A stretch of DNA of 64,000 nt from the NCBI GenBank assembly GCA_020060765.1, contig JAGUZQ010000060.1:62001-126000 (forward strand). Reading direction: 5' to 3'. This document shows positions 36,597 through 49,403 of the stretch, one piece after another. The translations under genes were made by a program, and so were the position numbers. Source of the stretch: Planctomycetota bacterium (GTDB taxonomy: Bacteria > Planctomycetota > SZUA-567). The notes under the pieces are model-generated. The model saw only the letters and a program-made list of their open reading frames with translations. It did not search any database and was not told where the DNA came from. Position 1 is the first letter of the stretch, and the number at the start of each line of letters is the position of its first letter.

Positions 36597-39500
36597 TTAA
36601 AGAATCGCATGACCGAGAGCGGCGTCGATTACGCCGGTTTTGTCGCCCAGCCGATAACTGCCCTGCATGGAATTTTCAAACGAAAAAGCCATGCTGTCAT
36701 GTTCAGTAGAGGCGGGGAGAAGGTGGGAGGGGGTGAAATCGTTCAGGTATAACTCCCGGGGAGAGACGCGGAGTTCGTCGATAACCGCTTGCGCGGGGGA
36801 AAGGCCGCTGTTGAAACTGCCGACCTGCGCGGTGAAGATGCAAGGCGAGACTTTTATCTGTTCTTTTACTTCCGCTCCCCACTGGGTCGGGGTATTGCTG
36901 GAAAGCTTGCCGTCCAGGTAGATTTCCAGTTTCCCCACGATTCCTGTTCGCAGATTCCACACGCAGGCGACATGGTGCCACTCGCCCGGTTTCCAGTCGG
37001 CAATCCCGGCATTCACCTGCCGGGATTTGTACTCCGTATTGGCTATGCGCAGGGAAATATTGCCGTTTTTATGTTGGAGAATCGCCAGGTTGTGCAGATT
37101 GGTATGGGTGGGATGATCCTGGCGGATGATGCCGCAATGAAATAGGCCTCTTTCCTGGAATTCTCCCCAGTTCATCTTCGGTTCGCGACCCGGCCAGGAA
37201 GGTTTGAGCCAGAATTCGATGGTGCCCTGGTTGAAATCCAGCACCTGTCCGGCGGGAGTATTGGTGTCGACGTAGACCGGACAATTCAAACCTTTGGTGT
37301 CGGGAGTCGTGCCTTCCGCATAAATGTCTTCGTTTGCGAGGAGAGAGGCAAGGTTGCCGACAGAAAAGGTTTTTTCCGTTTTGCGCTGCTCTCCGTCCAG
37401 TGTGGAGTAAGTCAGCTCCACCTGCACCCAGACGCCTTCGTGCATCACTTCAAGCTGTTCCTGCAGGGGGGCGCTTGTGACCCACCTGAGCGGCAGATAG
37501 GGAGTTTCAAGCACCGTCTTTTCCCGCACTACCTGTTTTTTTTCGTCCAGGTAGCGGACTTTCAATACGACATTCTTCAACGGGCGGGTAGTCTCCACCT
37601 GCAAATTCATACTTACCAGACTGCCCGCGCCGGAAGCGTGAGTCTGTCCCTTCATCTCCAGATTTTTGCAGACGATGGCGGGCGCGTAAGCGACCGGAGC
37701 TGAAGGTTTTTCCGCAAACAGCAGTGCAGGATACGACAAAATATCGTGAAAGGATTTTCCCGCGACGTAACGGCAGGAGAACGGCTCAAGCTCTTTTGGC
37801 GTTTGCGAAGACAGATGGTTGTAGGCGAGAAAGCTTTTCCAGCCCGCGCCGGGTTTTTTCCCAAGTTTTTCCCAGGACAGGGCAATTTCGCATATCCACG
37901 AATTTTCCGTGCGGGAAACCGCCACGCGCGCGCCGCTGTCCCAGCCTAATTCCTCGGTGACGGGGCCGGTGTCGGAGGGAATCCGCTTGAGAGAAAACAG
38001 GTTCCCCGCCGAATCAAACGCGAACTGGTAGAACGTCCCTTCCTTGGCGCCGGGAGAGAGAAACCATTCCAGCGATTCGGTATCGGGATATTGCGAGGCC
38101 GTGCGGGCAGGTTCCTGCAATTTACCGATTAACGGCTGGGTCGCGGTAAACGACAGGTAGAGGCAGTTATCGTCATAAGCCAGTCTGGCCGAGGCGGGAG
38201 TCGGCGCCAGTCGCAACGTTTTGTGCGCGACAAAATGCTCGACCGGCGCGGCTTGCCGCCAAACTTCTTCGTCAAGCTTTCCGTCGACGTTCACCGGTTC
38301 CTTCGTGCGCAAAGCCTGCAAATCGATTTTTGCCAGCATCGGTTCCAGCCAGGAAGGAACGTTGTGCGCCTGGAACAGCGCTTCCTTTTTGGCAGACAGG
38401 TCGGCGATGTCGGCGGCCAGTTTGTCGAAATCGGGATTAAGCATCCTGGCGTCGAGAAAGCCCCTGCTCCAGTTGCCGAGTTTATCCCACGTCATCCGCA
38501 CCGGAGCGTCTTTCAATTCGAGAGAAGCTTTCTCAAATTCGGCTTTCCCGTTGGCTAAAGCTTTTCTGCCCTGCTCCAGCAGATCGTCCGCCTCCGGCAT
38601 CTTCCCCGCCAGCGCCAGCGTCCGGGCGGAATAAACAAGGTAATGTACGTCGAGATATGGTTTGGCCGCTTTGGTCATGAGATAAAACTGGTTGAAGAAC
38701 GGCTGGACAAAAGGAGAAAGCGGTTCTTCTCCGCGTTCTTTCGCCTGGTCAATCCGTGCCTGGGCGCGCTCGAAAGCGGCAAGGGCTTGGTCGATGGCGG
38801 CGCGGTTACGTTTAATCAGGGGAAGACAGTCTGCGAGATTGAAACGCTCTGCCGCTTTTTCCGGATCGGCGGCGACGTAAAAACTCAGACCGTAGCGATA
38901 GAAGTCTTTCAAATCCTGACCGAGGTCGTACCCCCACATTCCCACCGCCGCGCGTTCGGCCAGGATGTCATACGCTTCCTGTTCGGTTTCAGAAGGCCAC
39001 GGTTCGCCTCTTTGCTGCCAGCTTTCCCAACCCGAACGGTCGAGATCGCTCCAGCCGGGGAATTTCACGTTCCAGGCGTATTCGCTGGCCACCGCCCAGG
39101 AGGCCTCGGTGAATTTGCGGGAGGTGTTAAGCCAGATGATATCCTTGTCGCTTGTTTCCGGGTCGGTGTCGCCGCGGTACGCGCTCCAGAAGCAACGGAT
39201 TTCGGGAGAGAGAAACGGTCTCGTGTCGCGGTTGGTGTGATGGACTTCGTAATAAATCCACTGCGGCCGACCGGGGAACGCCTGGTAAAACAATTCCATG
39301 CTGCGCCGGTTGCTTTCGCGTACGCAGACGCGGATGTTCTTGTCGATCTTTTCATTGACGCCCAACGTCCAGGCTTTCAGATTTGCGATCAGCCTGTCGG
39401 CTTCCAGCCGGTTGCCGGGGGTGTCGCTCATGCCGAGGTTTTTCAGGACAAAAGCGGGATCAAGATAATTACCGGAATACGGATAAACCACTAAAATGGG

Positions 39501-40706
39501 TTCCGCCCCCGCGCCGGAAATGGCGTCGGAGTAGATTTTGAACATGTCCACGTCTGCCCGGATGCGGTCGTCGCCGTATTTTTCGAGCGTGAGTTTATCG
39601 CGATTTGACCACTGTTCCGGATCGCGGATGCCGCCGCCGTCGACGGCGTGGATATACATCTGTCCCATGCCGGAGCGCCGGATATATTCCGCCATGAGGT
39701 CGGCTTTTTTCTGGTGCAGGTCGTGCCGCGCCCAGGAATGGTATTCCTTATGCACGCGGTAGTGCATCATCTCCTTGATTTCCGGGCGGTCTTTGTCCTT
39801 ATTTTCCCAACCCAGCGCCACGGTGCCGGAATCCAGGAACACGATGCCGCGCTGTTTGGCGTAGTCGGCGACGGCTTTCACCGTCGCGTAATCCTCGTCG
39901 GTAAATGGCAGCTTGTCGGCGAAGGGCGACCACTGGCGGTAAGTCGAAAGCGAGTTGCGAAAGCTGGACGTCGCCTTCATGCGGAAAAGATAGTCGACGG
40001 CTTGCTTCATCAATTTCAGGTGTTCCTGATAATTTTTCGCAACCATGTGTTCGGTGTAATATACGGAAAACAGGGTCGAAATCTGTCGGTTTTTGAAGTC
40101 GGGCCAGTCGATTATTTTCGCGGGATGGAGCAGGATCTGTTCACTGTTGCGTTCGATCAGCCAGCGCAAAGTCACGGCGGCATACAGCATTCCCGTCTCG
40201 CCCTGACCGGACAGGATGATCCCGTTTTCGACCGGATACAGGCCGTAAGCCTGATCGGTGGAAGAGGATTTTTCCGAGCGGGTTTCGTCTTGCGTGAAAG
40301 TGTTAGGCCACTGGTTTTCGATAATGATGTTAAAGGCGTCTGCCTGGGGCGCGGCAACCACCGAGACGGCAGTTTCCGGCGAGAGTTCACGCACGCGGGA
40401 AATGATTTCCTCCGCCGCGACAGTTCCTTTGTCAGATTCCCGCGAAAGAACAAGAGCGATTTTCCTCGCGTCCACTCCCTTGATGACAATGGCGGAATCG
40501 GCGAATGTCAGTTTTTTCGGAACCGGCAGCAAACGCAGTCCGCGTGCGCGCAAAGCTTCCCAGTTGCGTTGCAGTTCCGAGGTTTCGGCATTAGGGGTAT
40601 TGCGCCAGTTGGCGGATGAATCGCCGGCTGCGGTGAATTCTTCCTGGCCTGAAATCTTGCCTGCGAGCAGCATCAAGAACAGCAACAAAGCGAGATGTTT
40701 TTTCAT
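36597..40706 (-). CDS. Giant secreted glycoside-hydrolase-like protein with CBM9-like and LamG domains
   Basis: A 1369-residue secreted protein (signal peptide HLALLLFLMLLAGKISG). About 50-200 resembles the beta/alpha domain preceding hexosaminidase-type barrels (LRLLPVPKKLTFADSAIVIK, GETGMLYAAVTLRWLIERN). About 200-560 is a barrel-like region (GIVFLDSGTVALGWEN, YIHAVDGGGIRD) related in layout to GH20/GH84-type enzymes, with no clear catalytic pair identified by eye. A helical region follows. At 805-980 is a CBM9-like domain (NVDGKLDEEVWRQAAPVEHF, CLYLSFTATQP). At 1160-1320 is a LamG/concanavalin-like domain (GTIEFWLKPSW, LEIYLDGKLSS, VIDELRVSP). It is 28 bp downstream of a prepilin-like gene on the same strand. 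Confidence 0.82.
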   Translation of the reverse strand: MKKHLALLLFLMLLAGKISGQEEFTAAGDSSANWRNTPNAETSELQRNWEALRARGLRLLPVPKKLTFADSAIVIKGVDARKIALVLSRESDKGTVAAEEIISRVRELSPETAVSVVAAPQADAFNIIIENQWPNTFTQDETRSEKSSSTDQAYGLYPVENGIILSGQGETGMLYAAVTLRWLIERNSEQILLHPAKIIDWPDFKNRQISTLFSVYYTEHMVAKNYQEHLKLMKQAVDYLFRMKATSSFRNSLSTYRQWSPFADKLPFTDEDYATVKAVADYAKQRGIVFLDSGTVALGWENKDKDRPEIKEMMHYRVHKEYHSWARHDLHQKKADLMAEYIRRSGMGQMYIHAVDGGGIRDPEQWSNRDKLTLEKYGDDRIRADVDMFKIYSDAISGAGAEPILVVYPYSGNYLDPAFVLKNLGMSDTPGNRLEADRLIANLKAWTLGVNEKIDKNIRVCVRESNRRSMELFYQAFPGRPQWIYYEVHHTNRDTRPFLSPEIRCFWSAYRGDTDPETSDKDIIWLNTSRKFTEASWAVASEYAWNVKFPGWSDLDRSGWESWQQRGEPWPSETEQEAYDILAERAAVGMWGYDLGQDLKDFYRYGLSFYVAADPEKAAERFNLADCLPLIKRNRAAIDQALAAFERAQARIDQAKERGEEPLSPFVQPFFNQFYLMTKAAKPYLDVHYLVYSARTLALAGKMPEADDLLEQGRKALANGKAEFEKASLELKDAPVRMTWDKLGNWSRGFLDARMLNPDFDKLAADIADLSAKKEALFQAHNVPSWLEPMLAKIDLQALRTKEPVNVDGKLDEEVWRQAAPVEHFVAHKTLRLAPTPASARLAYDDNCLYLSFTATQPLIGKLQEPARTASQYPDTESLEWFLSPGAKEGTFYQFAFDSAGNLFSLKRIPSDTGPVTEELGWDSGARVAVSRTENSWICEIALSWEKLGKKPGAGWKSFLAYNHLSSQTPKELEPFSCRYVAGKSFHDILSYPALLFAEKPSAPVAYAPAIVCKNLEMKGQTHASGAGSLVSMNLQVETTRPLKNVVLKVRYLDEKKQVVREKTVLETPYLPLRWVTSAPLQEQLEVMHEGVWVQVELTYSTLDGEQRKTEKTFSVGNLASLLANEDIYAEGTTPDTKGLNCPVYVDTNTPAGQVLDFNQGTIEFWLKPSWPGREPKMNWGEFQERGLFHCGIIRQDHPTHTNLHNLAILQHKNGNISLRIANTEYKSRQVNAGIADWKPGEWHHVACVWNLRTGIVGKLEIYLDGKLSSNTPTQWGAEVKEQIKVSPCIFTAQVGSFNSGLSPAQAVIDELRVSPRELYLNDFTPSHLLPASTEHDSMAFSFENSMQGSYRLGDKTGVIDAALGHAIL

Positions 40707-40734: not shown

Positions 40735-41643
40735 TTACCACCAGCCATAACCAGGCCCGCGCGCATCGCCATAGAAAACGTCTTTGTATGAATCAGGATC
40801 AGGCGGATTGGAAGGGACGGCCTCTTCCTTCATGTATTTGAGATGGCCGTCAAGGAAAAATACGTTCCACCCTCCGTTGTGGCGGAACGATTTGCCATAT
40901 TGATACCAGAAGTTCATAAAGCTATCTGGTTCCTTGTCGCCCATTAATGCTATATCCGATCTTCTGGGGATATTGCGCAAGGACGCCCATTGTTGGAGGT
41001 ATTTGGGTTCGGCATTCATTAATGTATAATTGATGGCGTAATGTCCGCCTTTCCACGTGTTCCAGTTGGTTTTTCCGTCAACGTTTGGGCGGCTTTCGCT
41101 GGGGCAGTTATAGATGCCCATGACCTTATCCGGGGCGGTGCTGGGCCAGTTCAGCCAGGAGCTTTCGTCCACGTATCCGTCTTCAATAAAAAAGCGATAC
41201 CAAAGAAAGTGACCGGTTACATAAGTAATCGGTTCATATCTGTAGTCCTCCTCGTAGCTTGACCAGGCGAAATGCACTTGTCGCAAATTATTGGCGCAGG
41301 CGAGCGTGCGTGCTTTGTCAATGGCCTGCGAAAGCATAGGCAGCAGCATTGCCGAAAGAATGCTGAGAATCGCGATTACCACCAGCAGTTCCACCAGCGT
41401 AAACGCGGCGCGCGAAAATATCCCGGCGCCGCGCGGTACCCGCAGACGCAGGACTTGCGCATTTCCCGGAGACGCGGCAGACTGATTTCCCGGAGCGGCA
41501 AACAGCGCGGCCAGCGACTTCGCGTTCATCATTGCAGCCTGGGGGACGGTCGCCGGTTCGGCGGCGAATCCGGTTTTGCCGAATAATGAAAAAAGACGGT
41601 TGTCCAGCCGGGAAAAAACCCGGTCGTTTTCCGATTTGTTCAC
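40735..41643 (-). CDS. Prepilin-like protein with an unusually long leader
   Basis: A 302-residue protein. GTG start behind AGGAAAGGA. An 82-residue Ala/Pro/Arg-rich leader precedes [19 protein letters not shown], the class III signal; typical prepilin leaders are 5-30 residues. The residue before the Phe is Ala. The soluble domain carries CPSESRPNVDG and ends with FRHNGGWNVFFLDGHLKYM, the family signature, followed by a short Gly/Pro/Asp-rich tail. It is the upstream partner of the 1369-residue secreted protein, with 28 bp between them, so they should be one transcript. An internal start (for example the Met pair near residues 38-39) would shorten the leader. Confidence 0.85.
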   Translation of the reverse strand: MNKSENDRVFSRLDNRLFSLFGKTGFAAEPATVPQAAMMNAKSLAALFAAPGNQSAASPGNAQVLRLRVPRGAGIFSRAAFTLVELLVVIAILSILSAMLLPMLSQAIDKARTLACANNLRQVHFAWSSYEEDYRYEPITYVTGHFLWYRFFIEDGYVDESSWLNWPSTAPDKVMGIYNCPSESRPNVDGKTNWNTWKGGHYAINYTLMNAEPKYLQQWASLRNIPRRSDIALMGDKEPDSFMNFWYQYGKSFRHNGGWNVFFLDGHLKYMKEEAVPSNPPDPDSYKDVFYGDARGPGYGWW

Positions 41644-42707: not shown

Positions 42708-43334
42708 ATGGAATCCCCCTATCCCCCATCCATCCAGAATCTGATCGACCAATTTTCACGTCTGCCCGGCATCGGCAAACGTTCGGCGGAGCGGATGGCG
42801 TACCACGTGCTGTCCTCTTCCAAGGAAGACGCGATGGCGCTGGCGCTGGCGGTGCGGGATATCAAGAAAAATATCCGCGCCTGCCGCCGTTGCTTTAACG
42901 TGGCGGAGGCGGAATTGTGCGAAGTCTGCGCCGACTCCCGCCGCGACCACTCGCTGGTCTGCGTGGTCGAACTGCCGCGCGACATTATTTCAGTCGAGAA
43001 AACCGGAGCATTTCGCGGAGTCTACCACGCCCTGCAGGGCAAGCTTAATCCGGCGGAAGGAATCGGCCCGGAAAACCTGCGCGTGCGGGAACTGCACGAA
43101 CGGGTGAAAAATCCCGACGACGGCGTCAATATCCGCGAAATCATTCTGGCGCTGAACCCCACCACCGAAGGCGATGCCACCGCTGCTTTTCTCGCGGGTG
43201 AATTTTCGGCGTACGAAAACCTGCGCGTGACCCGCCTGGCGCGCGGCCTGTCTTCCGGCACCGACCTGGAATCGACCGCGCCCAGTTCCCTCCAGTTCGC
43301 GCTGGAAGGGCGGCGGGAAGTGGATAAGGCCTGA
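42708..43334 (+). CDS. recR: Recombination mediator RecR
   Basis: A 208-residue protein that works with RecO and RecF in recombinational repair. The helix-hairpin-helix is LIDQFSRLPGIGKRSAERMA, the zinc finger is CRRCFNVAEAELCEVC (four Cys), and the Toprim region runs from LVCVVELPRDIISVEK through ILALNPTTEGDATAAFL. The C-terminus has TRLARGLSSGTDLE. All landmarks are present at standard length. ATG start with GGAGT upstream. dnaX and a YbaB-like gene, the frequent neighbours, are not here. Confidence 0.96.
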   Translation: MESPYPPSIQNLIDQFSRLPGIGKRSAERMAYHVLSSSKEDAMALALAVRDIKKNIRACRRCFNVAEAELCEVCADSRRDHSLVCVVELPRDIISVEKTGAFRGVYHALQGKLNPAEGIGPENLRVRELHERVKNPDDGVNIREIILALNPTTEGDATAAFLAGEFSAYENLRVTRLARGLSSGTDLESTAPSSLQFALEGRREVDKA

Positions 43335-43390: not shown

Positions 43391-43430
43391 AAACTGGAAA
43401 TTCCAGTTTTAGTAGCCGGTTTTACTGGAA
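43391..43430. promoter_or_regulatory. Palindromic enhancer-like site plus half site
   Basis: AAACTGGAA (43391-43399), a central A and TTCCAGTTT (43401-43409) form a perfect 9-bp inverted repeat. A further ACTGGAA half site follows at 43424-43430. The sites lie about 160-195 bp upstream of the -24/-12 element at 43587, a usual distance for NtrC-type enhancers. Confidence 0.5.
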
Positions 43431-43586
43431 AATTCTTTTCTGTATACATATTTATGCTCGCGGAAACAGTTCCAATCCCCTTCCTATGGAAAAAAACATT
43501 GCGTTTTTCCCGGCCTGAGTCTTAAAATACCTCCGGAACGGTGAAGGTTGCCGATTATGCCGTTTTTTCGCAAAAGCCTTTGCCTC

Positions 43587-43602
43587 TGGCAAGGTATTTG
43601 CC
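43587..43602 (+). promoter_or_regulatory. Sigma-54 (-24/-12) promoter
   Basis: TGGCAAGGTATTTGCC: TGGCA and TTGC boxes with the invariant GG (43588-43589) and GC (43600-43601) ten bases apart. It lies 73 bp before the Ser/Thr kinase gene, in the 340-bp gap after recR that holds no other gene. Confidence 0.75.
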
Positions 43603-43674
43603 TGTGTTCAGGATGGACAGCCCTGATTTTTTAACAGGCAGTTTGTTTTATTTCGCTTTACCGAGGAGAAGGTG

Positions 43675-46422
43675 ATGCCAGACAATACCGTTTATCCGGA
43701 AAATGGAAATGGTCGCACGGTTATGCCCGATGTCAGCCAGGTAGAATCTCCCGATCAGGCGACCAGGCTGGAATCGCCTCCTCCCTCGGCGCAGAAAAAA
43801 GCAGAACCTCTGGCGACGGCGGCGACCATCGTCGAACAGGCAGCCGCTCCCGCCGCCGGTCAGGATGGCGCGGAATTCACCAAGGTGAACAGCTTCATCA
43901 ACCTCATGTCAAAAATCGAGGAATCCAGCGCCACCGCCATGATGGGCGCCACGCAGGTGGATGCGAAAATGGCCAACGCCAAGGAACTCGCTCCCGAGGA
44001 CAGCGCCGAGCTGAAACCGGGGCAGGTGTTGGGCAAATGCCGCATCGTCAAGGAGCTCGGGCGCGGCGGCATGGGCGCGGTTTATCTGGCGGAACACACC
44101 ACGCTCGAAGTCAAGGTGGCGGTGAAAATTCTCCCTCCCAGCATCGCGGTCAAGAACAAGCAGTTCGCCGAACGCTTCATGCGCGAAGCCCGGCTGGCGG
44201 CCAAGATCCAGCACGGCAACGTCATCCAGGTTATGGACGCCGAGCAGGACGCGGGCACGGGGCTGTATTACATCGTCATGGAATTTGTCAACGGCGGCTC
44301 GGTGAAGGATCTCATGAGAGAAGGTCCTATGGATCAGGTGCAGGCTATCGACATCGTGATGAAGGTCGCCGATGCTCTCACCTCCGCCGCCGACATGCAC
44401 ATCGTCCACCGCGACATCAAGCCTGACAACATCATGCTGACGGAAAAGGGACAGGTCAAGCTCGCCGACCTGGGCATCGCCAAGGAAAAGAGCAGCGAAG
44501 CTCCCGGCATCACCATGAGTTCGGTTATGATGGGTACCCCCGCCTACATGAGCCCGGAACAGGCCATGGACGCGAAAAACGCCGATGCCCGCGCCGACAT
44601 CTACAGCCTCGGCGCGACCCTCTACCACATGCTGGTGGGGGAAGTGCCATTTAACGGCGAGACTACCTATTCAGTGCTGACCAAACTCGCCACCGAACCC
44701 ACCCCCGACCCGCGCAAAAAGCGCAGCGACCTCAACGACAATGTCGCCAATATCTGCATGAGGATGATGGCCAAGGAAAAGGAAGACCGCCCCCAGAACG
44801 CGGCGGATCTGATGGAAGAACTGATGCAGGTGCGCAGCATCCTTACCACCGGTGTGGGTACCGTCATCACCAAGGGCACTATCGGCTTGAAGATGGCAAA
44901 GAACCCCAAGCCGCAAAGTACCCCCACCGTCGGCATGACCGGCACCGCCTTCGGCCAGCCTGTCCAGCCACAACAGCCAGCTGTCAGCTATATGCCTTAT
45001 ATCTGTGCAGCCGCCTGTGCTTTGGTGATTATGGGCGGTATCGGCTGGTGGATGCTTTCCGGCGACGACGAAGAAAATCATGCAGCCACTCCCAACGTTA
45101 GCCAGGCCGCTCCTGATACAACCAACGTTGCGCAGGCACCGGTCACTCAGCCGGCGGAAACCCCGATTACTCCTGTTGCCCCGGTCGCAAATGTTACCCC
45201 GACTAATCCAGTTAAGCCGGTTATTCCCACTCAGCCCAACGAAATCACACCTCCCGCAGTTACCACTACTCCGACCCAGCCTGTCGCGCCGGTGACCGTG
45301 CAGGAACCGGTTGACGCCGACTTCGTGAAACAGGCGATGGATGAACTGGAAAAAGCCCCGGCGGGCACGGTCAAGGTTTATTTCAAGAACAACCAGAAAC
45401 CGAAATGGCCGCAGGACACCGAGTTCAAGCTGGCTTCGCTGGGCGACTCGCCGGAAGCGGCGGAAAAGGCGGCCTATACCGAAGCCTTGACCGAGTTGCT
45501 CGCGCAGGTCGTGGCCAGCCCCGACCAGATGGAATCGCAGACTGTCAAGAACATGCTGGAGAAATCCGACAAGTACATCCAGAAAGCCAGCGAGTTCAAG
45601 ACCGGCGAAAAAGACGGGCTTAACATGGTCGCTATCGGCCTTACCCCGCTGACCGGAAAGATCGGCCAGGAACTCTATAAGAACGACGTGAAGGTGCGGG
45701 ACTTTTACGAACTGGTCGGCCGCCCCCGCATCGGCGTAGATTTGAAGACCATTGTCGCCACCGGCGAGGGGGAAAAGCCCTATTCCAACAATCTCGTTCT
45801 TAAGAGGATCGAGAAAGCGCTGGGGGCCTCGGGGGTGGAGATCGTCGCCCTCGCTGGGGAAAACCGCAAGGAGATGATGAAGGAATGCGACCTGCTGCTG
45901 ACTGGCACCTGCGTGGCGCGCGAAGCGGTGAAACTTCCTGACGGCGCCAATACTATCTACCGCTACAACCTCTCCGTCGACGCGGAACTGATCATCACCT
46001 CCACCGCCAATAAGGTGCCGCTGGAGCAGTTCAACTTCGACACCGGCGGCGACCTCGCCGAGGAATACGCCACCTTCAACGCCGCGCAGGCCGCGCAGAA
46101 AGTGATCGAGAACGGCACGCAGAAACTCGCGCCGGTCTTTTGCGAGAAGATGCTGGAGGAATGGATCAGCTTCGCCAGTGATATCTATTACACGGTCGAA
46201 ATAAGCGGCTTGCAGGGTGGCGACGACCTGGAGGAAGCGCGTACGCACCTTGAGAAAATCGACGGCATCACCAAGGTTCACCGCCGCTCCTACGCCGACA
46301 ACACACTCACCCTTGGCGTCGCCTACAGCGGCACGGCGGTGCAGCTCTGCAACCTGATCCGCAAGAACTGCGGCCTGCGCCTCGACGCGCAGTCTGGCAT
46401 GAGATTGAAATTTGTGAAATGA
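43675..46422 (+). CDS. Transmembrane Ser/Thr protein kinase with extracytoplasmic LPP20/FlgT-like domain
   Basis: A 915-residue protein from ATG 43675 (GAGGAG six bases upstream). After a 110-residue linker comes a complete Hanks-type kinase domain (about 120-400): ELGRGGMGAVYLAEHTTLE, VAVKIL (Lys151), HIVHRDIKPDNIM (Asp247), ADLGIAKE in the DFG position, and MMGTPAYMSPEQAMDAKNAD. One membrane helix (YICAAACALVIMGGIGWWML, about 443-462) precedes a Pro/Thr/Val-rich stretch. The outer part, about 545-915, has EAAEKAAYTEALTELLAQVV and EFKTGEKDGLNMVAIGL, resembling LPP20/FlgT N-terminal folds that follow a repeated-strand pattern. It is the first gene of a sigma-54 transcript; a signalling link between envelope and cytoplasm is inferred. 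Confidence 0.88.
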   Translation: MPDNTVYPENGNGRTVMPDVSQVESPDQATRLESPPPSAQKKAEPLATAATIVEQAAAPAAGQDGAEFTKVNSFINLMSKIEESSATAMMGATQVDAKMANAKELAPEDSAELKPGQVLGKCRIVKELGRGGMGAVYLAEHTTLEVKVAVKILPPSIAVKNKQFAERFMREARLAAKIQHGNVIQVMDAEQDAGTGLYYIVMEFVNGGSVKDLMREGPMDQVQAIDIVMKVADALTSAADMHIVHRDIKPDNIMLTEKGQVKLADLGIAKEKSSEAPGITMSSVMMGTPAYMSPEQAMDAKNADARADIYSLGATLYHMLVGEVPFNGETTYSVLTKLATEPTPDPRKKRSDLNDNVANICMRMMAKEKEDRPQNAADLMEELMQVRSILTTGVGTVITKGTIGLKMAKNPKPQSTPTVGMTGTAFGQPVQPQQPAVSYMPYICAAACALVIMGGIGWWMLSGDDEENHAATPNVSQAAPDTTNVAQAPVTQPAETPITPVAPVANVTPTNPVKPVIPTQPNEITPPAVTTTPTQPVAPVTVQEPVDADFVKQAMDELEKAPAGTVKVYFKNNQKPKWPQDTEFKLASLGDSPEAAEKAAYTEALTELLAQVVASPDQMESQTVKNMLEKSDKYIQKASEFKTGEKDGLNMVAIGLTPLTGKIGQELYKNDVKVRDFYELVGRPRIGVDLKTIVATGEGEKPYSNNLVLKRIEKALGASGVEIVALAGENRKEMMKECDLLLTGTCVAREAVKLPDGANTIYRYNLSVDAELIITSTANKVPLEQFNFDTGGDLAEEYATFNAAQAAQKVIENGTQKLAPVFCEKMLEEWISFASDIYYTVEISGLQGGDDLEEARTHLEKIDGITKVHRRSYADNTLTLGVAYSGTAVQLCNLIRKNCGLRLDAQSGMRLKFVK

Positions 46423-46452
46423 CTTTTCCTCCGATTTTAATGAAGGAAGATT

Positions 46453-48345
46453 ATGAATATTCTACGGCAGTATAAAAAAGTCCTGTTCGCCGCGCTCGTG
46501 GCCTGTGCGCTGCATTCTCCTGCTCGCGCGGAGGAGCAGAAAAACCTGAGAGTGTTTTTCGTGCTGGAAGGAAAAATCAAGGGGCAGGGTATTGGCGACG
46601 CCGACCAGGCCGAGGCGCGCACGCGCACGCAGATCACCCTCACCCGCGCCTTGCGCAAGGTGCTGGCCTTGGACGTTGTCGACCCCACCCTGCTGGAATC
46701 TGTGAAAAACGACGCGCAAAAGATGGCGATTCTCCGTGGCGGTTCCGCCGCCGACGTGCGCAAGGCTCTGGCCGAACATGAGGTCGCCGCGTTCGTGCGC
46801 GTGACCTACCGCACCGCGCCGGTAGTGAATGTGGACGGGATGTTCAGGGGAGTGGCGGCGCTGGTGATGGAAATGATCGACCTGAAAAGCGCTGAAAAGG
46901 CGCTGATTATCGAAAGCCAGCCTATGGGCACCCCTGACTGCGGCCCCGACATGGTGGCGCAGAAAGGTGCTACCATCTATAACGCCGGATTTCAGGCCGT
47001 CACCGCCGCCGCAGCCGACCTGGTGAAGAAATTCGAAAACCATGCCGCCGTGCAGCGCCTCCGCGAAGGCAAGCCTTTGGTCGAACCCGCGCCTGTCGAT
47101 CCGAAACTCGACACAAAAAAGAAAGTCCTCTTCATCATCGAAGGCAACGTCAACGGCCAGTATATCCAGACCAGCGCCGATGGCAAGGCGGAATTGCGAG
47201 GCGAGGCGATGGACGAAACCGATTTCCAGCTCGCTGCTCGCCGCCTGGAAGCGACCCTGTATCGCAAGATGGCCGACGTGCTCAAGATCACCAATTTCGA
47301 CAAGGACACTCTCGACAAGCTGAAGGAAGACCAGAAGAAATGGGCGATCCTGCGCGGCGGTTCGGTGGGCGAAGTCAAGCAGGCCGTCGCCGGCATGAAC
47401 GTCGACCAGGTCATCCGCATCAACTACCGCACCGAGCCGATGACCGCGTTGAAAAGCGGCGAGCTGCTGATGTACAGCGGGCTGGCGACGATGAGCGGCT
47501 TCTTCATCGACCAGCGCACCGGTAAGATGGTTGACTTGATGACGCCGCTGATGGGCACCAACGAGCATCCCGCCAAGCGCGCGATCGACCCGTTCAACTC
47601 CGGCTTAAGCGCCCTCGACTATGCCAGTGATTTACTTATCGACGACCTCAAGGAACAGCTTGGCCTGGGCGTTTTGAAGATGGACACCAACGATAATGTC
47701 GTGGACGACCCCAACAAGCCGACAGTCGCCGTGATCTGGATTCGCCCCTCGGCGGAATTCAAGCCCTGGCACACGCCGCGCGCGAGCAATCCGGCTCTTG
47801 GCATGAAAAAGCGCAAACAGGTCGCCGAATTCGTCAAGTACATGCGCGAAACCGGCGATATCGGCGTGGACGTGTCGGATTATCTCGTCAAGGGCCTGAG
47901 CGACAGCGGGGTCTTCATCCCCATCGAGGAATCGCAGAAAATCCGCGGCCAGATCGCGGAAGTGAAAAACCAGTTGCTGGAGTATCGCAAACTCGGCTGG
48001 GTGGGAGAGAAGCTGCCGTTTGATTCGCCCGTGACCGCCGCCGGGAAAATCCAGGCCGACTACGCCGTTACCGCCACCATCGACAAAATCCATGAGGAAT
48101 CCAGTTCCACCTCGCTGATCCTCGTCAGTAAGGGCAGCCTGAAATCGGTGGCCGAGGCGACGGTGGTAGTCACCAACGTCAAGACCGGGCAAAGCAAATC
48201 CTTCAAGGGCACGGGTTCGCTTTCCCTCTCCGGCTACGGCACGGTTTACTCCTTCGAACCGGGCGCGATGAAACTGGACAAGCTGCTCATCGGCCAGGCC
48301 ATCAAGGAAGCTTTGTACAACGCAGCCAAACAGGCCACGCTCTGA
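46453..48345 (+). CDS. Secreted protein with duplicated domain and CsgG-like C-terminus
   Basis: A 630-residue exported protein (signal peptide ending PARA-E, about residue 27). Residues 30-205 and 220-415 are an internal duplication: LRVFFVLEGKIKGQGI matches VLFIIEGNVNGQYI, and QKMAILRGGSAADVRKALAE matches KKWAILRGGSVGEVKQAVAG. The C-terminal 210 residues (TVAVIWIRPSAEF, VDVSDYLVKGLSDSGVFIPI, ADYAVTATIDKIHEESSS, ATVVVTNVKTGQSKSFKGTG) follow the CsgG/LpoB plan of a periplasmic or outer-membrane assembly factor. It lies 30 bp after the kinase gene. The conserved Cys for lipidation, usual in CsgG, is absent from its N-terminus. Confidence 0.8.
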   Translation: MNILRQYKKVLFAALVACALHSPARAEEQKNLRVFFVLEGKIKGQGIGDADQAEARTRTQITLTRALRKVLALDVVDPTLLESVKNDAQKMAILRGGSAADVRKALAEHEVAAFVRVTYRTAPVVNVDGMFRGVAALVMEMIDLKSAEKALIIESQPMGTPDCGPDMVAQKGATIYNAGFQAVTAAAADLVKKFENHAAVQRLREGKPLVEPAPVDPKLDTKKKVLFIIEGNVNGQYIQTSADGKAELRGEAMDETDFQLAARRLEATLYRKMADVLKITNFDKDTLDKLKEDQKKWAILRGGSVGEVKQAVAGMNVDQVIRINYRTEPMTALKSGELLMYSGLATMSGFFIDQRTGKMVDLMTPLMGTNEHPAKRAIDPFNSGLSALDYASDLLIDDLKEQLGLGVLKMDTNDNVVDDPNKPTVAVIWIRPSAEFKPWHTPRASNPALGMKKRKQVAEFVKYMRETGDIGVDVSDYLVKGLSDSGVFIPIEESQKIRGQIAEVKNQLLEYRKLGWVGEKLPFDSPVTAAGKIQADYAVTATIDKIHEESSSTSLILVSKGSLKSVAEATVVVTNVKTGQSKSFKGTGSLSLSGYGTVYSFEPGAMKLDKLLIGQAIKEALYNAAKQATL

Positions 48346-48386
48346 ACCATTGCATTCCGTTCCTCCTTTCCGTATGATTATGGAAT

Positions 48387-48755
48387 ATGGAACATTTGCC
48401 CCAGGCGAAACTTGTCGCCGCCGTCCTGTTATGCCTGTCGGTTTTTCCCGGCTGCCAGCGCAAGCCGCGTCCCGATGATTGCCGGGAGCGCGATCGAGTG
48501 ATCCATGCCCGTTTCGACAATCTGGAAAACCGCCTCACCGCCATCAACCGCCAGCTTGACGAAATAAAGGGAATTCCGCCACAAACCCCGACTTCCGGGC
48601 CGGCAGCGGTTGCCGAGGTACTCCCCGCAAAAGTCGCCGAGGCGGAAGAAGCCGACAAACCCCCGCCTCGCAGGAAGATTTCAACCAGAAAGATTTTTTT
48701 CAAGGTTTTCAGGATTTTCCGAAAGGGATTCAACCTTTTCCGAAAGTTGTATTGA
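48387..48755 (+). CDS. Small lipoprotein with coiled coil and basic C-terminal tail
   Basis: A 122-residue protein with a lipoprotein signal (LVAAVLLCLSVFPGC, lipobox FPGC, Cys23). Next comes a short coiled-coil stretch RDRVIHARFDNLENRLTAIN, a Pro/Ala/Glu-rich linker, and a strongly basic, aromatic tail (STRKIFFKVFRIFRKGFNLF). The coiled-coil segment matches that of the following gene (RDKNIHTRFDALEKELGDLQ), so the two share ancestry. It is 41 bp after the CsgG-like gene and likely in the same transcript. The basic amphipathic tail may bind membrane or polyanion. Confidence 0.78.
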   Translation: MEHLPQAKLVAAVLLCLSVFPGCQRKPRPDDCRERDRVIHARFDNLENRLTAINRQLDEIKGIPPQTPTSGPAAVAEVLPAKVAEAEEADKPPPRRKISTRKIFFKVFRIFRKGFNLFRKLY

Positions 48756-48780
48756 CAGAATAGGCTTCTGTCGGTATCAA
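48752..48780 (+). promoter_or_regulatory. Possible internal sigma-70 promoter
   Basis: TTGACA (48752-48757) overlaps the stop codon of the preceding gene. After 17 bp comes TATCAA (48775-48780), followed by an AT-rich run. It could drive the peptidoglycan-binding lipoprotein independently. Confidence 0.45.
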
Positions 48781-48830
48781 TATATATATGTAGTAAGGTG
48801 TCTTGTGTTTACATAATACGGAGATTTACC

Positions 48831-49403
48831 ATGAAGCTTTCGAAATTAGTCTACGTCGTCGCCGCTGCCCTTGCCCTGTTGTCAGCTCCCGGTTGCAAGA
48901 CTGCCAAGGAAAAAGCCGAGGAAGTCGAGCGCGACAAGAACATACATACCCGCTTTGACGCGCTGGAAAAGGAACTGGGCGATTTGCAGGAACGGCTGGG
49001 CGGCATCAATCAGGATCCGTCCGCCCCTTCCATGACGTTGCGCCCCGTGGTGCCGGTCGAACCCGCGCCCCCGGCGACGATGAGCGAGAAGGAACGGCTG
49101 GAAACCCTTTCGCAACGCCATAACCTGAAACCAGTTGTCGGCTCCCACGCAGGCAAATCAGCGAAAAGCGGCAAAGGCGGCGTCGATCCTAAAAACAACA
49201 TCCGGGTGCCGGTGCCTGCTATCGAAGTCCAGCGCGCATTGAAGCGCGCCGGTACCAATCCGGGTACGATTGACGGAAAAGTCGGTGCGCGCACCGTCGC
49301 CGCGATCAAGGCGTTCCAGGCCAAGGAAGGACTCAAGCCCGACGGCATTGTCGGCCAAGCCACATGGGCGCGCCTGCAGACCTATCTGGACATCGAGAAG
49401 TAA
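48831..49403 (+). CDS. Lipoprotein with peptidoglycan-binding domain
   Basis: A 190-residue lipoprotein started at ATG 48831 (CGGAGA upstream). The signal LVYVVAAALALLSAPGC gives Cys22 as lipid site. A coiled-coil segment (RDKNIHTRFDALEKELGDLQ) like the one in the preceding gene follows, then a linker with a Gly/Lys patch, then a C-terminal PG_binding_1 domain (VPAIEVQRALKRAGTNPGTI, DGKVGARTVAAIKAFQAKEG and PDGIVGQATWARLQTYL). It would tether an outer-membrane or inner-membrane lipid anchor to the cell wall, and is the natural wall contact for the kinase/CsgG cluster before it. Confidence 0.88.
   Translation: MKLSKLVYVVAAALALLSAPGCKTAKEKAEEVERDKNIHTRFDALEKELGDLQERLGGINQDPSAPSMTLRPVVPVEPAPPATMSEKERLETLSQRHNLKPVVGSHAGKSAKSGKGGVDPKNNIRVPVPAIEVQRALKRAGTNPGTIDGKVGARTVAAIKAFQAKEGLKPDGIVGQATWARLQTYLDIEK

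Follow-up and report, generated by a model that had tools for sequence, protein, structure and literature searches.

A receptor-type Hanks kinase and a neighboring CsgG-like protein as a possible envelope-sensing pair in one family of Planctomycetota

The locus comprises four open reading frames on the forward strand, lying 3′ of recR (42708–43334; 337-bp gap) and 5′ of ribF in the window, the 64,000-nucleotide stretch of Planctomycetota DNA analyzed here. They are separated by gaps of 30, 41 and 75 bp, taking 48831 as the start of gene 4, an arrangement that agrees with the original prediction of genes running in one direction with short intervals between them. The four genes are real, and the products of all four are predicted envelope proteins. 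Between recR and the first of them, a perfect 9-bp palindrome (AAACTGGAA-A-TTCCAGTTT, followed by T; 43391–43409, no strand assigned) is the probable recR terminator. It was also considered as the operator of a regulon, a role rejected because the palindrome occurs as a single copy in the genome. Further upstream, the opposite strand encodes a large secreted protein (36597–40706) and a pseudopilin-like protein (40735–41643). A search for plasmid-borne relatives found none.

Expression of the locus had been attributed to a sigma-54 promoter at 43587, a claim that is not supported. The site (TGGCAAGGTATTTGCC; 43587–43602, forward strand) retains the GG-N10-GC core and shows two mismatches to TGGCAC-N5-TTGCA, but nine equally good sites are observed in the window against 11.7 expected by chance. 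The comparison was extended to G003, a Planctomycetota MAG from a different genus within the family (JAFGWW010000051.1). Upstream of its kinase ortholog, the best match with the same spacing scores 6, against 9 for the site at 43587, and a conserved sigma-54 site was not found by this comparison. RpoN is encoded in the genome, and sigma-54 control is therefore possible but unsupported.

The first gene (43675–46422, forward strand) encodes a Hanks-type Ser/Thr kinase of 915 residues, an assignment based on Pfam, sequence motifs and the G003 orthologs. The ATG at 43675, directly behind AGGAGAAGG, is the better choice of start. The protein consists of a disordered N-terminus, a kinase domain (residues ~120–380), a membrane helix (~437–463), a linker (464–552) and an outer part of about 340 residues (~570–915). 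The kinase domain matches Pfam Pkinase (E=2e-49) and carries GRGGMG at residue 130, VAVK at 149, HRD at 246, DLG at 266 and SPE at 294, so that the Gly loop, Lys, HRD and DxG elements of the Hanks class are all in place. Both the intact kinase domain and the single hydrophobic helix had been recognized in the original prediction. By the usual topology of the class, the kinase domain would be cytoplasmic. The 89-residue linker contains 18 Pro, 15 Thr, 14 Val and 12 Ala.

With its intact motifs, one membrane helix, predicted cytoplasmic kinase domain and extracytoplasmic part, the protein resembles the receptor-type Hanks kinases of the PknB/PASTA group. It differs from them in scoring 296.6 bits against the PASTA kinase model NF033483, below the cut-off of 450, and in having an unrelated outer part in which Pfam detects no PASTA repeats; it is not assigned to the PASTA kinases (PknB/StkP). 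The kinase domain also matches the PADLOC models for PD-T4-6, with E-values down to 1.4e-85, which raises the question of a phage-defense kinase of this kind. However, it is mostly the generic Hanks kinase domain that these matches cover, and genes 2 and 4 match no defense model in PADLOC. A defense role was rejected on these grounds and is extremely unlikely.

The 4.8-Mb genome contains about 30 Ser/Thr kinase loci, and many of the kinases inspected carry different, unrelated C-terminal parts, mostly TPR-like. A new outer part alone is therefore unremarkable, and the abundance and diversity of these kinases would fit a routine enlargement of the kinase repertoire, in which the outer part has diverged fast and the neighboring gene is incidental. 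The unusual element of this kinase is its dedicated CsgG-like neighbor rather than its new outer part.

The outer part had been described as an LPP20/FlgT-like domain. Its first segment (45430–45696, forward strand) is weakly DUF2066/LPP20-like, both matches being below threshold. The best Pfam match is to DUF2066 (PF09839, a family with no assigned function), covering just the first 46 residues of the outer part (E=2.5e-4; 20.9 bits, cut-off 23), and the outer part of the G003 ortholog matches LPP20 (E=0.037; 14.9 bits, cut-off 25.9). The three-part order of the outer part presumably resembles that of DUF2066. The middle segment (45700–46130, forward strand) is predicted to be alpha/beta and weakly resembles PelC in Foldseek searches (probability up to 0.90, E 0.04), the underlying model being of low confidence. 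The C-terminal segment (46177–46419, forward strand), formed by the last 80 residues of the kinase, is predicted to adopt a ferredoxin/HMA-like beta-alpha-beta-beta-alpha-beta arrangement, with Foldseek matches to HMA domains at a probability of up to 0.97 and E ~0.08. The AF2 model of the outer part, which was built from a two-sequence input, is poor (pLDDT 48), and the PelC and HMA fold matches are hints only. A sequence profile of the outer part returned only chance hits in the PDB, and neither the outer part nor its pieces matched FlgT_N, FlgT_M or FlgT_C in Pfam.

FlgT (the Vibrio flagellar H-ring protein), Lpp20 and FlgP have an SHS2-like fold in common (PMC12222027), and the first segment of the outer part shows a weak LPP20-type signal. 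Unlike FlgT, the outer part is fused to a kinase, lacks the FlgT matches and ends in a segment predicted to be ferredoxin-like. A distant relative of the outer part was found in another genome, G105, as a predicted lipoprotein (E=6.7e-5) that aligns with the middle and C-terminal segments (hhalign probability 94) and contributes to the assignment of both. Two genes immediately precede that of this lipoprotein, one encoding an LPP20 protein (E=6.3e-10) and the other a small lipoprotein weakly similar to FlgT_N, and the relative appears to offer independent support for the LPP20/FlgT direction. The idea of an LPP20/FlgT-like outer domain thus leads, weakly, in the right direction for the first two segments; it does not extend to the C-terminal segment, and the protein is not FlgT. 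The cluster in G105 (L011, G105:C86), comprising the LPP20 protein, the small lipoprotein and the lipoprotein resembling the kinase outer part, contains no kinase.

Gene 2 (46453–48345, forward strand) encodes a secreted protein with a signal peptide and no lipobox. By sequence and model, it is composed of a ~165-residue domain in two copies, the duplication noted in the original prediction, and a C-terminal domain of ~215 residues that is probably CsgG-like. For the gene 2 model (pLDDT 59), Foldseek returned 25 PDB matches at E ≤ 0.001, almost all of them to CsgG, and the model also matches PelC. The best CsgG match reaches a probability of 1.00 and E=1.7e-5, with an rmsd of ~12, an unreported aligned stretch and the same model confidence (pLDDT 59). 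In Pfam, neither gene 2 nor its C-terminus matched any family, CsgG included, and against the PDB only chance hits came from sequence profiles of the whole protein, the repeat and the C-terminus, the C-terminal profile finding no CsgG.

A paralog of 547 residues in the same genome (L008:1231-2874, reverse strand, G000:C1) contains a zinc ribbon, one repeat of the gene 2 type and a Pfam CsgG domain (E=2.4e-33), together with a weak FlgT_C match. Its repeat aligns with that of gene 2 at an hhalign probability of 99.5, and for its CsgG domain and the end of gene 2 the alignment is weak (E=8.6e-4, probability 24). The domain order of this paralog is unusual. Taken with the predicted fold, a paralog bearing a true CsgG domain suggests that the end of gene 2 is likely CsgG-like. 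The CsgG resemblance in the earlier description of a CsgG/LpoB-like end is accordingly kept at the level of model and paralog, but not at that of a Pfam CsgG match. A description of gene 2 as three tandem copies of one fold is not adopted, since profile comparison detected no relationship between the repeat and the CsgG-like end. Gene 2 resembles CsgG (the curli secretion channel) and PelC in its model matches and through the paralog with the same repeat, whereas it differs from CsgG in missing the Pfam domain, in lacking a lipobox and in possessing extra repeats.

CsgG- and PelC-type folds are known from outer-membrane export systems. The matches to both would suit an outer part that is an assembly module rather than a sensor, anchoring the kinase to an outer-membrane structure, with gene 2 as an export protein and the export of a polysaccharide or fiber regulated by phosphorylation. 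The succession of gene 2 and a beta-barrel gene in G003 also favors such a role. However, no curli or exopolysaccharide genes were recognized beside the kinase–gene 2 pair, and the regions corresponding to the CsgG membrane hairpins look short in gene 2 on sequence inspection. This role for the outer part is unlikely.

The kinase and gene 2 recur in G003. The outer part and gene 2 adjoin there, in the same order and on the same strand as in the window, with identities of 31% for the outer part and 36–42% for gene 2, which has three repeats in G003 and two in the window. The G003 contig carrying them starts inside the outer part, and the kinase half was located at one end of a different contig (63–64% identity, reciprocal best hit; next 45%). 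A contig break inside one kinase gene is the simplest reading. As the two halves are on different contigs, the intact fusion is therefore seen in the window alone. A second candidate for the missing half of the ortholog, a kinase starting at the edge of contig G003:C95, was rejected because it has a different sequence and a TPR-like tail. A gene for a beta-barrel outer-membrane protein (L007:3744-4799, forward strand, G003:C285) comes after gene 2 in G003, at the place occupied by the lipoproteins in the window.

Apart from the distant lipoprotein of G105, the outer part is confined to two of 392 genomes sampled from the phylum, both belonging to one family, and gene 2 to the same two. A scan of genome contigs gave no match with gene 2 alone, and the two-genus alignment recovered the G003 contig only. 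Since only these two genomes carry the outer part and gene 2, the kinase and gene 2 probably work together. Their exclusive linkage at 30–40% identity is the strongest evidence for joint working. Exclusive co-occurrence and adjacency in two genera at this level of divergence would be improbable for an incidental neighbor, and we regard repertoire expansion as an unlikely account of the locus.

Genes 3 and 4 both encode proteins with lipobox signal peptides. Gene 3 (48387–48755, forward strand) specifies a small lipoprotein with a basic C-terminal tail, and gene 4 (48831–49403, forward strand) a lipoprotein with a PG_binding_1 domain (E=4e-18), in keeping with how the two had been characterized. 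Gene 4 behaves as a separate unit: it is present in 15 of the 16 family genomes and adjoins ribF in four genera, represented by the window genome, G003, G001 and G007. Gene 3 is 38–42% identical to the N-terminal part of gene 4, and in the loci examined it was not found elsewhere as a separate neighbor of gene 4 orthologs. It is a local duplicate of the gene 4 N-terminus, and it probably lies outside the conserved kinase–gene 2 pair. Between the two genes, positions 48752–48780 contain TTGACA-N17-TATCAA with a perfect 7-bp inverted repeat (GACAGAA/TTCTGTC), a possible separate promoter of gene 4 with an operator; this element was not listed by the promoter scan.

The original prediction had placed all four products in a kinase-coupled complex spanning wall and membranes, in which the kinase, the CsgG-like protein and both lipoproteins form a four-part trans-envelope assembly with gene 4 as the wall anchor. 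The common strand, the short gaps and the predicted envelope location of every product are consistent with such a complex. Against it, the near-universal gene 4 is far more widespread than the pair, which occurs in two genomes. In G003, the only other genome with the pair, gene 4 lies beside ribF and not on the contig of gene 2, which is followed by the beta-barrel gene instead, and gene 3 is merely an N-terminal duplicate of gene 4. Given the family-wide presence of gene 4, its place beside ribF in four genera and the derivation of gene 3 from it, both lipoproteins were therefore removed from the proposed complex. The four-part assembly is quite improbable, and in G003 the gene order recurs for the kinase and gene 2 but not for genes 3 and 4; the part of the proposal that remains is a kinase with one periplasmic CsgG-like partner.

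We tentatively favor reading the kinase and gene 2 as a dedicated pair that senses the envelope and is restricted to this lineage, with genes 3 and 4 lying downstream by chance, a view drawn from two genomes of one family and from AF2 models with pLDDT values of 48 and 59. For the interaction of the two proteins, their location, the signal and the substrates, we infer the following scheme. The gene 2 product would be exported, its CsgG-like domain would mediate assembly in the periplasm or close to the outer membrane, and its repeats, two here and three in G003, may provide a docking or ligand-binding stalk. The kinase would reside in the inner membrane, with the Pro/Thr-rich linker carrying the outer part across the periplasm, where the outer part could bind gene 2 or a ligand of gene 2. 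This engagement might then cluster or dimerize the kinase, allowing the cytoplasmic domains to trans-phosphorylate and subsequently to phosphorylate downstream proteins, as for other receptor-type Hanks kinases.

Receptor Hanks kinases are best understood through the PASTA domains that read wall fragments in Gram-positive bacteria. A receptor kinase that docks an LPP20/PelC-like head on a CsgG-like outer-membrane assembly, converting the state of outer-membrane assembly or secretion into a cytoplasmic phosphorylation readout, would be previously undescribed, and we put it forward as a doubtful proposal. No paper joining a kinase, CsgG and LpoB was found in the open-access literature. With its narrow spread across two genera, both in one family, the kinase–gene 2 pair is limited in generality. 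A kinase served by its own CsgG-like partner in the periplasm would offer a candidate route by which a Gram-negative-type cell links the state of its outer membrane directly to Ser/Thr phosphorylation.
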